A stretch of DNA of 64,000 bases from Planctomycetaceae bacterium (GTDB lineage Bacteria; Planctomycetota; Planctomycetia; Pirellulales; UBA1268): the NCBI GenBank assembly GCA_947449135.1, contig CANFQO010000001.1, forward strand, positions 20,946 through 84,945, written 5' to 3'. The translations under genes were made by a program, and so were the position numbers. Every line of letters starts with the position of its first letter. Position 1 is the first letter of the stretch. The notes under the pieces are model-generated. The model did no database searches, was not told the DNA's origin, and was given only the letters and a program-made list of their open reading frames with translations. Positions 2,742-13,113 of the stretch are shown here, piece by piece.

Positions 2742-4484
2742 TCAGACAGTGTTGTAGGCGCGCAACCGGCCAGCCGTTGCCTCGCGGGTGAACTTGTAGA
2801 AATGCCAGTGTGTCACGCAGCGGTTCATGAACTGCGCGAAGCCGATGATTCCCCGTTGCGACACGATCCGCTGCGTGAAGAAAAAATGAGCGTAAACGGC
2901 TCCCACCTTGCGCAGCGAGCCGTCGCGGGCGAGAGCCCAGAATAGGGTCCAGAGCAGCGTCAGCCCGTAGCCGAGCGTCGGCAGCGACTTGCCCTCTCCG
3001 GCCTTCTGGCAGATCGCCGCCCTCCGTTCGAGATACTCCTTCGACTCACAGACCTTGAAGTAACGCTCCAGGTAGGCCTCGGGCGTGTAGAGCCGCGTGA
3101 CCAGATCCCAGTACCCCTTACGGAGTTCGTCTCGCGTCATCTGTTTCGGCACGAAGTTGCAACTGGGATCCTCCTCGACGAGCCGCCCCTCTGCCTTGAG
3201 TCTCGCGTAGAGCGGGGTGCGCGGGATGGCCTGCAGCATGCCGACCATGGCCAGCGTGATGCCGTTGTCCTGAATGAACCGGAACTGATCCTCAAAGATG
3301 GCCTTGTCGTCGCTGTCGAAGCCGACGATGAAGCCGGCGTTGATGTCGAGCCCCGCCGCCTGGATCCGGGCGAGCTTGGCCTCGAGGGAATCGCCTCGCA
3401 CGTTCTGGAATTTCTTCGTCTCTTTCAGCGACTCCATCCGCGGCGTCTCGATCCCAATGAACACGCTGCGAAAATTGGCCCGGTACATCAAGTCCAGCAG
3501 TTCGGCGTCGTCGGCCAAGTCGATGCTGGCCTCCGTCGTGAGCCGAAGCGGATAGCCGTGCTTCTCCATCCAGGGGATGATCTGCTCGAGCAGCGACTTG
3601 GCTTTCTTCTTGTTGCCGATGAAGTTGTCATCCACGATGAAGGCCGAATGAAAACCGGCCAGGCGAAGATCGTCCAGTTCAGCGACGAGTTGCTCCGGTT
3701 CCTTCACCCGCGGCTTGCGGCCGTAGATGACGATGATGTCGCAAAACTCGCATTGGAACGGACAGCCTCGTGAATACTGCAGCGCCGCCGACGCGTAGCG
3801 GCTGACCTTGAGCATGTCGAATCGCGGTCTGGGCACCTGCGTCATGTCGGTGGGCGTGGTCTGTTCGTATCGCGTGTCAGTCTTCAGGTTGTGTGAAAAA
3901 TCGTCGAGAAACTTGGGCCAGGTAGTTTCCGCCTCGCCCACGAAACTCACGTCGCACAGACCCTCGAAAAACTCCTCCTGCACCGACATCAGCGGCCCGC
4001 CGACAACGGTGAAGATCTTGAGCTCCCGCAGTCGGAGCAGAATCTGCCGCATGCGTTCCTTCTGAACGATCATGCCCGTCACACCGACGATGTCGTAGCC
4101 CGACATCGACTGCCAGTCGATGTCCTCGACGTTTTCATCAACGAGCGTCACATCGTGCTCACCGGAGAGACCGGCTAAGGCAGACAACGAGCCGGAGATC
4201 ATCGTGCTCCGCTTGTCGCCCGGGTAGAGAGGCAGGGCAAAATCAAATCCCCAGTAGGACGGCTCAAACTTGGGGTTGATCAGGCAGATCGAGAGTTTTC
4301 TTCCCGGGGGCTGCCGTGTGCGAATGGGTGCCGGGGCTGTGTACGCGACGGTGGCGGGCGACACGAGGTCGACAACCCCGACGAGCTTCTCCCCGCAGCA
4401 GGGATCATCGACGATTGTGAGGGCGGTACTCATCCGTGAGTTTCCGAGGCAGGGTGACCGGGCGATCGACCCCGCGGCCGACAT
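2742..4484 (-). CDS. B12-binding-domain radical SAM protein (C-terminal DUF4070-like)
   Basis: 580 aa; cobalamin-binding-like N-terminus, RGCPFQCEFCDI (CxxxCxxC), FIGIETPR motif; actual start may be the internal MSTALTIVDD. Confidence 0.85.
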   Translation of the reverse strand: MSAAGSIARSPCLGNSRMSTALTIVDDPCCGEKLVGVVDLVSPATVAYTAPAPIRTRQPPGRKLSICLINPKFEPSYWGFDFALPLYPGDKRSTMISGSLSALAGLSGEHDVTLVDENVEDIDWQSMSGYDIVGVTGMIVQKERMRQILLRLRELKIFTVVGGPLMSVQEEFFEGLCDVSFVGEAETTWPKFLDDFSHNLKTDTRYEQTTPTDMTQVPRPRFDMLKVSRYASAALQYSRGCPFQCEFCDIIVIYGRKPRVKEPEQLVAELDDLRLAGFHSAFIVDDNFIGNKKKAKSLLEQIIPWMEKHGYPLRLTTEASIDLADDAELLDLMYRANFRSVFIGIETPRMESLKETKKFQNVRGDSLEAKLARIQAAGLDINAGFIVGFDSDDKAIFEDQFRFIQDNGITLAMVGMLQAIPRTPLYARLKAEGRLVEEDPSCNFVPKQMTRDELRKGYWDLVTRLYTPEAYLERYFKVCESKEYLERRAAICQKAGEGKSLPTLGYGLTLLWTLFWALARDGSLRKVGAVYAHFFFTQRIVSQRGIIGFAQFMNRCVTHWHFYKFTREATAGRLRAYNTV

Positions 4485-4631
4485 CCTGTCTGCCGCAGTG
4501 CCCCAAGAATAAGCAGGTTCCGGGAAATGCCCAAGGTCAAATCTCAGCCCAGGCCGCGGGCCTGTCGTGAGTGGGCTATTTCCACCAGTTTTCGCGATCC
4601 AGGCAGACGCTGGCGGGGCGAAAAAGCCGAC

Positions 4632-4988
4632 TTATTGGTCTGGCGTCGGTTCGAGGGGCGGCAACTCCCAGGTATCGACCTCTACCACCGCCACAACGTG
4701 GGCGGCATTGATGGAGCAGGTGGCGCGGTCGGGGCCGGAGGACTTCAGAACGGGAAAATGCCCCCATGGAAACCCGTCCTTCCGGAAGGGAATGACCAGT
4801 TCCACATCGAGCCAAATCATGCCGTTCGGCCCCTGCCTCACTGCTTTGATGGCATCGATAACGAGAACCTGCCGGGTATCGAGCAGGGCGCCAAATCGGC
4901 CTGGCTCGGATAATATTCGGTCAGTGAACCAGCAGGGGAGCAATTCCCGCGCGGTGCCACGCCACAACTCGGTTTCTTCTTCGTGCAT
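4632..4988 (-). CDS. hypothetical protein
   Basis: 118 aa ORF MHEEETELWRGTARELLPCWFTDRIL...; protein-like composition, but no recognised family and weak RBS. Confidence 0.4.
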   Translation of the reverse strand: MHEEETELWRGTARELLPCWFTDRILSEPGRFGALLDTRQVLVIDAIKAVRQGPNGMIWLDVELVIPFRKDGFPWGHFPVLKSSGPDRATCSINAAHVVAVVEVDTWELPPLEPTPDQ

Positions 4989-5151
4989 GGGAGTGGAGGT
5001 CTTTGAGCCGATCAGCGAGGAGCCCAGAACGGCCTTTTTCGCTGATACAGGAAGGGAACGGACGGTTGTTACTCACATCCTCAATGTCCACGAATCGCCT
5101 CATGACCGCAACGCCCCGCACCCAACTATGGCGATGGTGAGGCCGGGAAGC

Positions 5152-5157
5152 TATACT
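5152..5157 (+). promoter_or_regulatory. candidate -10 box (TATACT) upstream of the DEAD-box helicase leader
   Basis: AAGCTATACTCTC; 5/6 match to TATAAT, no convincing -35. Confidence 0.25.
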
Positions 5158-5255
5158 CTCCCTCGTAACGAGGTGGTGAGAGCGATTGACAACGGTGATT
5201 GAGCCCGCGTCTCTCGCTGAATCATCAAAATTCTACTTGCCCCCTCCGCTGAACC

Positions 5256-5468
5256 GCACGATCTTCGAGATCGTGTTGCTCGCCTCTGACTCTCGCCTGT
5301 GACGCATCGTGTGCGTAGCTGGCGGGCTCAGGAGTCGCAAGCCGTCGGGTTCGGTGCGTCCCAGGAATGGGAAACGGGGCCGATTGCCATCGGCTTGGCC
5401 AACATCGTGTTGGCTGACGTGGCATGGATGTGCCGTGGGTTCGTCCCGCGGTCCCTGCGCTTACCGCG
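5256..5468 (+). ncRNA. putative structured 5' leader / cis-regulatory RNA of the DEAD-box helicase
   Basis: Serial hairpins: CACGATCT-TCG-AGATCGTG (5257-5275); CGCATCG/CGGTGCG (5303-5309/5352-5358); UCCCA-GGAA-UGGGA with a GNRA loop (5359-5372); GCCGAU-UGCC-AUCGGC (5379-5394); GCCAACA-UCG-UGUUGGC (5398-5414); CCGUGGG-UUCGU-CCCGCGG (5433-5451). Confidence 0.5.
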
Positions 5469-5530
5469 TCTGTCGCGACCGACGGGCCGTATGCGGATCC
5501 GAGCAACACATTTTTCCACAGGAATCGAAT

Positions 5531-6934
<1,404 letters not shown>

Positions 6935-6977
6935 GTGGGCGTCGCCGTATCTCGATCGTTCAACCCCGGAATACACG

Positions 6978-8072
6978 ATGACTCCGTCGCCACTCCTTCA
7001 GCCCTTCCAGCTCCGTGACATCCCGCTGCGCAACCGCATCGTGATGGCGCCGCTCACTCGGTCGCGGGCCGGCGTTAGCCGCGTTCCCAACGCCCTGATG
7101 GCGGAATACTACGGCCAGCGGAGTGCCGCGGGGCTCATCGTCTCCGAGGCCACGACCATCTCCGAGCAGGCAAATGGCTGGCTTGAGTCTCCTGGCATCT
7201 ACACCGACGCGATGGCAGAGGGCTGGCGGCTCACCACCGATGCTGTCCACGCCCGAGGTGGCCGGATCTTCCTGCAGCTGTGGCATATGGGCCGGGCTTC
7301 GCATTCGAGCTTCCACGGCGGACGGCTCCCGGTGTCGGCTTCGGCGATCCCGATCGCCGGTGACGGCATCCACACACCGCAGGGCAAACAGCCTTACGAG
7401 ACGCCGCGAGCACTCGACACCGCCGAGATTCCGGGTGTTGTCGGCGACTATCGTCATGCCGCCGCCCGGGCCCGAACGGCAGGCTTCGATGGCGTCGAAA
7501 TCCACGCCGCCAACGGCTACCTCATTGACCAGTTCCTGCAGTCTAAGACGAATCACCGTACCGATCGCTACGGTGGCAGCATCGGGAATCGCTTCCGCCT
7601 CCTGGCTGAGGTAGTTGAGGCAGTATCAGCCGAATGGCCTGCCGGTCGCGTCGGTGTTCGCCTCGCCCCAAATGGCGGGTTCAACGACATGGGCTCGCCC
7701 GACTTCCGTGAACAGTTCACCTTCGTGGCCACGCAACTCGATGCCTTTGGTCTGGCGTACCTCCATGTCATGGATGGCCTAGCCTTCGGCTTTCATAGGC
7801 TCGGCGAGCCTATGACGCTGACGGATTTTCGCGGCGTCTATCGTGGACCGCTTATTGGCAACTGCGGCTACACGCAGGAATCGGCGGAGGCTGCCATCGC
7901 TGGCGGGCTCGCCGATTTGATTGCCTTTGGTCGCCCTTACATCAGCAATCCGGACCTCGTCGAACGGATCACGAACGGCTGGCCGTTGGCCCAGCCAGCC
8001 GACATGGCGACGTGGTATTCGCCGGTCGGTGCCACCGGCTATACCGACTACCCACCCTACCGCGGCTGCTAG
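6978..8072 (+). CDS. alkene reductase, Old Yellow Enzyme family
   Basis: MTPSPLLQPFQLRDIPLRNRIVMAPLTRSRA...LQLWHMGRASH...GFDGVEIHAANGYLIDQFLQSKTNHRTDRYGGS. Confidence 0.93.
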   Translation: MTPSPLLQPFQLRDIPLRNRIVMAPLTRSRAGVSRVPNALMAEYYGQRSAAGLIVSEATTISEQANGWLESPGIYTDAMAEGWRLTTDAVHARGGRIFLQLWHMGRASHSSFHGGRLPVSASAIPIAGDGIHTPQGKQPYETPRALDTAEIPGVVGDYRHAAARARTAGFDGVEIHAANGYLIDQFLQSKTNHRTDRYGGSIGNRFRLLAEVVEAVSAEWPAGRVGVRLAPNGGFNDMGSPDFREQFTFVATQLDAFGLAYLHVMDGLAFGFHRLGEPMTLTDFRGVYRGPLIGNCGYTQESAEAAIAGGLADLIAFGRPYISNPDLVERITNGWPLAQPADMATWYSPVGATGYTDYPPYRGC

Positions 8073-11547: not shown

Positions 11548-13113
11548 TCACTTGCCCGGCTTTCCTCCAGGCGGCTTTCCCTTCTTCTTGGCACCGCCGT
11601 GCGGCTTGCCGAATCGCGGCCCGTTCACGGGGGCGAACTTCCGTGGTTTCGGATACTTGCCACCGGGGCCGGGCCGTCGATCCTCGCGGTCACGGTGGTC
11701 ACCCCTGTCGTTCGGCCGCCGATGCTCCGGCCGGTGCACGGGCTCCGCGTCGACAGCCTCCTGGCTGGCAGGCGCGAAGTGGTGCAGGATCGCCGCGGCG
11801 ACGTCGGTCGGCGTGTGTCCCTGTTCCAGGAGTCGCTCCACCAGCGGGGCCCGTCGCGCAAAGTCGCCCCCTTCGAGCGTCGCCGTGATCTTGTCGAAGA
11901 GGGCGTCTGAACGACGGTCCTCAACCGCTGCCAGTGACGGCACCTGCTCCCGACGGATCTTCGTCCTCAGAAACCGCTCGATCGACTGCAGTTTGTAAAT
12001 TGCTGCCCCCGACACAAGCGTCACTGCCTTGCCCTTCTTTCCAGCCCGACCAGTGCGGCCGATGCGGTGCACGTAGTCCTCGGCATCGTAGGGCAGATCG
12101 TAGTTGACGACGAGTTCCAGATCATTGACGTCGATGCCACGCGCGGCCACGTCGGTCGCGACCAAGAAGGCGAAAGCGGCCCGCTTGAAGTTCTGCATGA
12201 CGCGAGTTCGCTGGGCCTGAGCCATGCCACCGTGCAGTCGCTCGGCCGAGTAGCCTCGGCCGATGAGCGCGTCGGCCAATTCGTCGACCATCCGCTGCGT
12301 GTTGCAAAAGATGACGCCGCTCTTCACGTCGTGAAAGTCGATGACGCGAACCATCGCGTCGAGTTTCGCGTGATGCCGAACCTCGTGATAGACCTGATCC
12401 ACGAGTGGCGGACCGCTCACGGACTTCTGTGCGATCTTGATCGTGGCCGCGTCGTTTGAGTGGCCACGGACAAGCGCCTGGATCTGCGGCGAGATGGTGG
12501 CGGAGAAGAAGATCGTCTGCCGGCCCTCCGGGGCGGCGGCGAGAATCTTCTCGATATCCTCGCGGAAGCCCATGTCGAGCATCCTGTCGGCTTCGTCGAG
12601 AATCAGCATGCGGATCTTCGTGAGATCGAGTGTGCCGCGATTCATGTGGTCGGTAAGCCGGCCCGGCGTGCCGACGACGACATGTGCTCCGCGCTTGAGT
12701 TCGGCAAACTGGCGCTCATACGAAGCGCCACCGTAGATCGCCACAGAATTGACGCCACGACGAAACGCCGCGAGTTTGTGCACCTCGTCAGCCACCTGCG
12801 TGGCCAGTTCCCGCGTCGGGGTGAGGATCAGCACCTGAGTGGCCTTCAGGGCCGGGTCAATCTTCTCGATGGCCGGGATGCAAAAGGCCGCGGTCTTCCC
12901 CGAACCCGTCTCCGACTGGCCGACGACGTCTCGGCCGGACATGATCAGTGGAATGGCTGCTGACTGGATCGGTGACGTTTCCTCGAAGCCGAGTTGGGCC
13001 ACCGCCTTGAGCACTTCCTGGGAGAGCCCCAAGGAGGCAAACGGCACGTGTCCGGGGCGGGAATCGTCCGGCGAAGAGGGAGCGGGACTGCGATCGGGCT
13101 TGGAATCAGTCAT
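11548..13113 (-). CDS. DEAD-box ATP-dependent RNA helicase
   Basis: 521 aa; VGQSETGSGKTAAF, PTRELATQ, LILDEADRMLDMGF, FSATIS, HRIGRTGRAGKKG; Lys/Gly/Pro-rich tail. Confidence 0.95.
   Translation of the reverse strand: MTDSKPDRSPAPSSPDDSRPGHVPFASLGLSQEVLKAVAQLGFEETSPIQSAAIPLIMSGRDVVGQSETGSGKTAAFCIPAIEKIDPALKATQVLILTPTRELATQVADEVHKLAAFRRGVNSVAIYGGASYERQFAELKRGAHVVVGTPGRLTDHMNRGTLDLTKIRMLILDEADRMLDMGFREDIEKILAAAPEGRQTIFFSATISPQIQALVRGHSNDAATIKIAQKSVSGPPLVDQVYHEVRHHAKLDAMVRVIDFHDVKSGVIFCNTQRMVDELADALIGRGYSAERLHGGMAQAQRTRVMQNFKRAAFAFLVATDVAARGIDVNDLELVVNYDLPYDAEDYVHRIGRTGRAGKKGKAVTLVSGAAIYKLQSIERFLRTKIRREQVPSLAAVEDRRSDALFDKITATLEGGDFARRAPLVERLLEQGHTPTDVAAAILHHFAPASQEAVDAEPVHRPEHRRPNDRGDHRDREDRRPGPGGKYPKPRKFAPVNGPRFGKPHGGAKKKGKPPGGKPGK

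Follow-up and report, generated by a model that had tools for sequence, protein, structure and literature searches.

The mRNA of deaD (csdA), a DEAD-box helicase gene of Escherichia coli, has a long 5′ UTR. In Caulobacter crescentus, there is evidence that RhlE autoregulates by lowering the level of its own mRNA, and the 186-nt 5′ UTR of rhlE is required for full expression (PMC5472812). The Synechocystis helicase CrhR also autoregulates, using both transcriptional and post-transcriptional routes in a temperature-dependent manner (PMC3485376). For a different gene of RNA metabolism, that of RNase E (rne), feedback through the rne 5′ UTR is reported (PMC10989929).

Here we describe the 5′ leader of a DEAD-box helicase gene in a stretch of 64,000 nucleotides from a Planctomycetaceae bacterium, hereafter the window. 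The gene is RhlE-like and not DeaD-like; the leader is likened to that of E. coli deaD by its length. The Caulobacter rhlE 5′ UTR combines an RhlE-type helicase, a long leader and several predicted stem-loops, but its structure was predicted from a single sequence, it belongs to another phylum, and no covariation model or sequence relation is known for it (PMC5472812). Synechocystis crhR is likewise a DEAD-box helicase that controls its own expression, although no UTR element is named there (PMC3485376). The rne leaders offer a parallel in which a structured leader of an RNA-metabolism gene is read by the gene's own product; they belong to another gene, however, and the Rfam rne models had no match to the leader described here.

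The helicase gene and its leader in the window

The gene at 5531..6934 (+ strand) encodes the Pfam domains DEAD (PF00270) and Helicase_C (PF00271), and its ATG at 5531 is the helicase start codon, as the preliminary description of this DNA had proposed. Its top NCBIfam models were RhlE2 and RhlE, both scoring under their cut-offs, which is why we call it RhlE-like. A B12-binding radical SAM protein with DUF4070 is encoded divergently from it (2742–4484, − strand). The window holds a second DEAD-box helicase gene, CshA-like (11551–13113, − strand), which lacks a leader of the type found here, termed A-type below.

A −10 promoter box, TATACT (5152–5157, +), precedes the leader, and the box likewise lies ahead of GAGGTGGTRAGA in other A-type leaders. 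Its distance to GAGGUGGURAGA is 16–18 nt in 14/14 A-type leaders. From the position of this box, transcription is predicted to start at about 5164, giving a structured leader RNA of 5164–5530 (+) that is kept in relatives: A-type leaders are present in four congeners, five further genomes of the family and four genomes of another family. No terminator-like site (a G+C-rich hairpin followed by a T run) was found in 5060–5580, and no conserved upstream ORF in the leaders compared. A Shine-Dalgarno-like AGGA, recognised by sequence at 5520–5523 (+), lies outside the conserved fold; pairing of this site, or of the ribosome-binding site of other A-type leaders, was inconsistent across the type.

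Conserved folds of two leader types

Folding energy did not set the leader apart. In 120-nt segments over 5180–5499, the + strand reached z-scores of only about −0.2 to −1.7 against dinucleotide shuffles, so its hairpins by themselves do not exceed chance expectation, and the − strand scored no worse. Leader identity was 72–80% across about 350 nt in four congeners, and a plain DNA search reached the genus only, plus short pieces in one other genus. Most of the 72 family genomes encoded the orthologous helicase (identity at least 71%, versus at most 44% for paralogues), and we read the upstream DNA at 44 of these loci. The A-type was seen in the genus of the window as well as in g2 and g5; a second type, B, was distributed over genera g3, g4, g7, g10, g11 and g12.

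The A-type fold was derived from nine orthologous leaders, retaining only the better-supported helices, and mapped onto the window. In these nine leaders 95.9% of cells were paired, the covariation score was 0.233 (at most 0.069 with slid controls), and two-sided changes occurred in 16/66 pairs compared with 2–5 in slid controls. As the fold was built on the same sequences that were counted, slid controls flatter it, and a blind search is the cleaner test.

The 5′ domain (5170–5246, +) consists of H1 (5170–5180/5236–5246, with a single U-C mismatch in the window sequence), P2 (5181–5185/5214–5218) and a weak P3 (5219–5222/5230–5233). H1 and P2, with 100% and 97.5% of cells paired, are mostly invariant in the nine leaders. 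In the covarying H2 domain (5247–5356, +), H2 (5247–5255/5348–5356) closes two hairpins: H3 (5256–5276, +; 97% of cells paired, two-sided changes in 4/8 pairs) and H5 (5301–5317, +; stem 5301–5307/5311–5317, 91% of cells paired, two-sided changes in two pairs). Over 14 sequences, H2 had two-sided changes in 4/9 pairs and a score of 0.223 versus at most 0.089 for slid controls. A candidate helix H6 (5376–5378/5453–5455), which would enclose variable hairpins in 5376–5455 (+) including those at 5398–5414 and 5435–5439/5445–5449, is invariant in nine sequences; it is therefore conserved without covariation. The 3′ hairpin H7 (5459–5494, +; core 5462–5475/5480–5491) had 97% of cells paired in 13 sequences, two-sided changes in 5/12 pairs and a score of 0.424 against at most 0.097 for slid controls. 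An outer helix joining GUAA near the leader start to UUAC in H7 was rejected, being inconsistent and in conflict with H7.

The preliminary description, whose quoted sequences and coordinates are all correct, had proposed a linear chain of hairpins. The conserved fold is instead branched, and its main helices H1, H2 and H7 were absent from that description. Conservation and covariation of the stems, whose absence had been named beforehand as refuting, were looked for and both found. The stem at 5257–5275, which is H3, is strongly supported, and that at 5433–5451 gained support from two-sided changes in 3/5 pairs of 5435–5439/5445–5449 in the A-type alignment. The hairpin UCCCA-GGAA-UGGGA (5359–5372, +) has a stem that is invariant in five congeners and absent elsewhere, and its proposed GNRA loop holds in four of the five but fails in the other. 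For 5398–5414 the support is limited to one compensatory change, GCCGACA/UGUCGGC, in the closest congener, whereas 5379–5394 has unpaired changes even in that congener, which weaken it, and is gone in the other three. Three elements were dropped as not conserved: the hairpin at 5161–5173, which straddles the predicted start and would thus be partly untranscribed; the closing stem 5303–5309/5352–5358, which clashes with two conserved helices; and the competing helix CGCGGU/ACCGCG (5447–5452/5463–5468), which is missing from 3/4 congeners. The bistability suggested for that helix is likewise unsupported, and in the conserved fold H1, H2 and H7 take the place of these three elements.

For the blind search, a covariance model (R2) was made from the H2 domain of the nine A-type leaders, all of family f1. 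In the order sample it found new matches in family f12 (L208, E-value 1e-12; L209, 7e-11; L210, 1e-6; L211, 4e-5), all 4/4 of them immediately 5′ of the orthologous helicase, here 78–85% identical. R2 also matched a locus in genus g6 (L204) whose contig stops ahead of any gene. Among 392 genomes of the phylum, strong matches came only from the genome of the window and a single genome of f12. Matches with E-values of at least 6e-4 in families f9, f10 and f15 (L212–L214) and in the phylum sample (L215–L218) were not near the helicase and were set aside as noise. A plasmid search found no leader.

The B-type leader occupies the equivalent position in 25 genomes, mostly behind promoters of the TTGCC-17-TGGTATGAT kind, and contains the near-invariant blocks YGAUGARGG, CGCGAUCG and GUGAUCCAUCG. 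RNAalifold with RIBOSUM scoring folded it as a three-way junction of P1 (YGAUG/CAUCR), P2 (GGYNN/NNRCC) and P3 (GAUCGC/GUGAUC), which standard RNAalifold missed. Its covariation score over 21 sequences was 0.276, whereas shuffles reached 0.172 ± 0.011 and slid partners no more than 0.126. The corresponding covariance model, R1, searched against 297 genomes of the order, yielded 24 strong matches (E-value 3e-8 or better); across the family's 72 genomes it yielded 25. All were within the window's family, one per genome, and at 24/24 loci of the order search the orthologous helicase followed directly 3′. Four of these 24 (L184, L185, L187 and L188) lay outside the training set.

R1 did not match A-type leaders, even unfiltered, and neither model recognised members of the other type, so the unity of the two types is argued from helices and not from a model. 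Long A-type leaders (L046, L048, L049 and L208–L210) hold the B-type landmarks GAUUGCAUCUUC..AGCGGCCGUUU and GACCGCGAUU, slightly varied, inside H1. At P1, these leaders have GAGG/CCUC where the B-type has GAUG/CAUC, and at P3 they have GAUUGC/GCGAUU or AAUUGC/GCGAUU where the B-type has GAUCGC/GUGAUC. These differences are compensatory exchanges at matching places. In the window's genus the 5′ domain is shortened relative to the long A-type leaders. Both types probably form one family, a homology drawn by hand.

Leader variants track the helicase tree, in which A-type is the leader of the basal f12 row, and a single group unites the B-type rows with two leader-minus rows. Three orthologues (L050, L058 and L060) have a −10-like box merely some 15–35 nt before the ATG; as these have no leader, it is dispensable in some lineages. 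In genus g8 (L052–L055 and L057), an H7-like hairpin, GGUCG-CGAU-CGACC, lies about 220–235 nt before the helicase, and no leader model matched there. The helicase in a public record titled Candidatus Kuenenia stuttgartiensis (L085) showed no differences, along the stretch compared, from those of g8, a genus of this Pirellulales family, so the record is apparently mislabelled.

Taken with the fixed −10 box, the lack of an intervening terminator and the constant position between the promoter and one helicase gene family, the covariation and blind matches strongly support a conserved structured leader of the RhlE-like helicase mRNA, in agreement with the central proposal of the preliminary description.

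Known RNA families and leaders of sister lineages

None of 4227 families of Rfam 15, among them cold-shock leaders, rne leaders and riboswitches, matched the leader at the gathering cut-off, and a search of window positions 4000–7000 with E-values up to 10 left it without a match. Nor were there matches at the gathering cut-off among 14 A- and B-type loci, while twenty sister-lineage loci gave sub-threshold chance matches only, so that type C, described below, is absent from Rfam too. The main text of two published RNA-discovery surveys, one of them PMC2864571, mentions no helicase-associated motif. The listed range of the Rhodopirellula-1 motif covers Proteobacteria and Planctomycetes (PMC2864571), whereas, in the genomes sampled, only two families of Pirellulales gave strong A- or B-type matches, a comparison of distribution alone. 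These comparisons place the leader in an as yet uncatalogued family of RNAs of the order Pirellulales that are structured and putatively cis-regulatory, and we infer that it acts in cis on helicase expression.

Helicases 59–68% identical to that of the window were found throughout the order, and we read twenty of their upstream regions. One leader had an A-like 5′ domain (L219), and two more look related (L136, from the cultured Bythopirellula polymerisocia Pla144, and L238 with an R2 E-value of 8e-4). Thirteen loci of several families shared a different leader of about 130 nt, type C. Together with L125, which came from a model search described below, the type C loci are L220, L221, L224–L226, L228, L229, L231, L232 and L234–L237. 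Type C comprises a hairpin CCAUUGGA-UUACUGCCAGG-UCCAAUGG, a hairpin GAACGC/GCGUUC and a hairpin CAUUC-GGUCC...GGACC-GAAUG whose stem includes the start codon. The fold scored 0.180 versus at most 0.084 for slid controls, with mainly one-sided changes in the start-codon hairpin, and the predicted pairing probability of the start codon was 0.36–1.00, mostly above 0.6. A candidate pseudoknot between a CCAGG loop and CCUGG is nearly invariant and thus conserved, not proven by covariation; it occupies the same bases as the start-codon hairpin, with which it would compete.

A type C model, R3, matched two loci outside its training set, L125 (E-value 7e-18) and L234 (2e-21). Weak R3 matches were also seen in two Phycisphaerales genomes (L103:403–518, E-value 0.0015; L144:1336–1470, 0.025), both just upstream of a helicase, hinting that type C extends to another class. 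Other helicase loci, mostly from other phyla, gave no convincing R3 match. Two further leaders were observed among the sister lineages: type D (L222 and L223), with a conserved start AGCGAATGCRAGAGCGCCG, and type E (L227, L230 and L233), with conserved TGTAAAGWTGTAGCGAG..GTCTCGTCACACTTTAGTG..TTTTCCRCCATGCCG.

A proposed sensor of helicase level and other readings

We favour, with modest confidence, the reading that this uncatalogued cis-regulatory leader is a feedback sensor of helicase level. Three observations favour it: the element is specific to a single helicase gene; in sister lineages the leader of the homologous gene pairs the start codon; and self-regulation seems to occur in Caulobacter rhlE (PMC5472812) and Synechocystis crhR (PMC3485376). 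The feedback itself is suggested by analogy. Sequence comparison shows a leader that lies right behind the promoter, folds into the H1/P2/P3 junction domain, the branched H2 domain and the 3′ hairpin H7, and is attached to this one helicase gene. One fold would permit expression under a shortage of free helicase or when, as in the cold, RNA is too stable; plentiful helicase would remodel the leader or recruit decay, lowering its own synthesis. In the A-type, the step acted on could be translation, stability or Rho-dependent termination. Intrinsic termination by the leader is unlikely, and leader-peptide attenuation is disfavoured.

The leader might instead respond to temperature, the RNA refolding or being stabilised in the cold and so raising helicase synthesis without helicase feedback. 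RhlE-type helicases are known to be cold-induced (PMC5472812), and cold-shock genes typically have long leaders. However, the cold-shock leaders in Rfam did not match, and no R1 or R2 copies were found before cold-shock or other genes, so we regard this as unlikely, though ahead of the remaining alternatives. Somewhat harder to sustain is a constitutive element that shields the 5′ end or guides processing of the mRNA by RNase and senses nothing. It would fit the stable 5′ junction and the 3′ hairpin flanking the gene, as well as the Caulobacter rhlE 5′ UTR, which increases the mRNA level, probably via stabilisation (PMC5472812); yet a branched conserved fold with near-invariant blocks is more than a protective stem needs, and the gene specificity of the leader also speaks against it.

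A small-molecule riboswitch with a three-way-junction aptamer is improbable. The B-type junction does carry near-invariant blocks, and its GUGAUCC has two possible partners, one within the junction and the other GGGAUCAC further downstream, but the blocks are largely explained by pairing, in several B-type members the alternative hairpin is disrupted, and control of one gene family lacks a metabolic logic. An independent small RNA beside the gene would account for the promoter of its own and the dense structure, but hardly for the missing terminator-like site before the gene or for an occurrence solely directly before the helicase wherever a gene is visible, and we give it very little weight. 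Chance hairpins in G+C-rich DNA, which the shuffle-like fold energies would allow, are contradicted by the covariation and the blind cross-family matches and are equally implausible.

The feedback reading can be widened, tentatively, to a principle valid across much of Planctomycetota, with each major lineage having a dedicated leader (types A–E) that reports helicase activity, and the helicase resolving mutually exclusive folds. In type C, it would resolve the pseudoknot versus the start-codon-pairing hairpin in its own mRNA. If this is true, these bacteria would possess an inbuilt sensor of RNA-unwinding capacity, with an architecture that has been exchanged repeatedly and a function that has persisted.

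Structured leaders of DEAD-box helicases were previously known as single examples without comparative structures. New here are a covarying RNA family outside Rfam that is tied to one helicase gene in two families, and a leader of another kind that sister lineages have on the homologous gene. With its defined helices, its natural leader-minus orthologues (L050, L058 and L060) and the candidate switch of type C, this system opens to direct testing how bacteria gauge and adjust their capacity for RNA unwinding.
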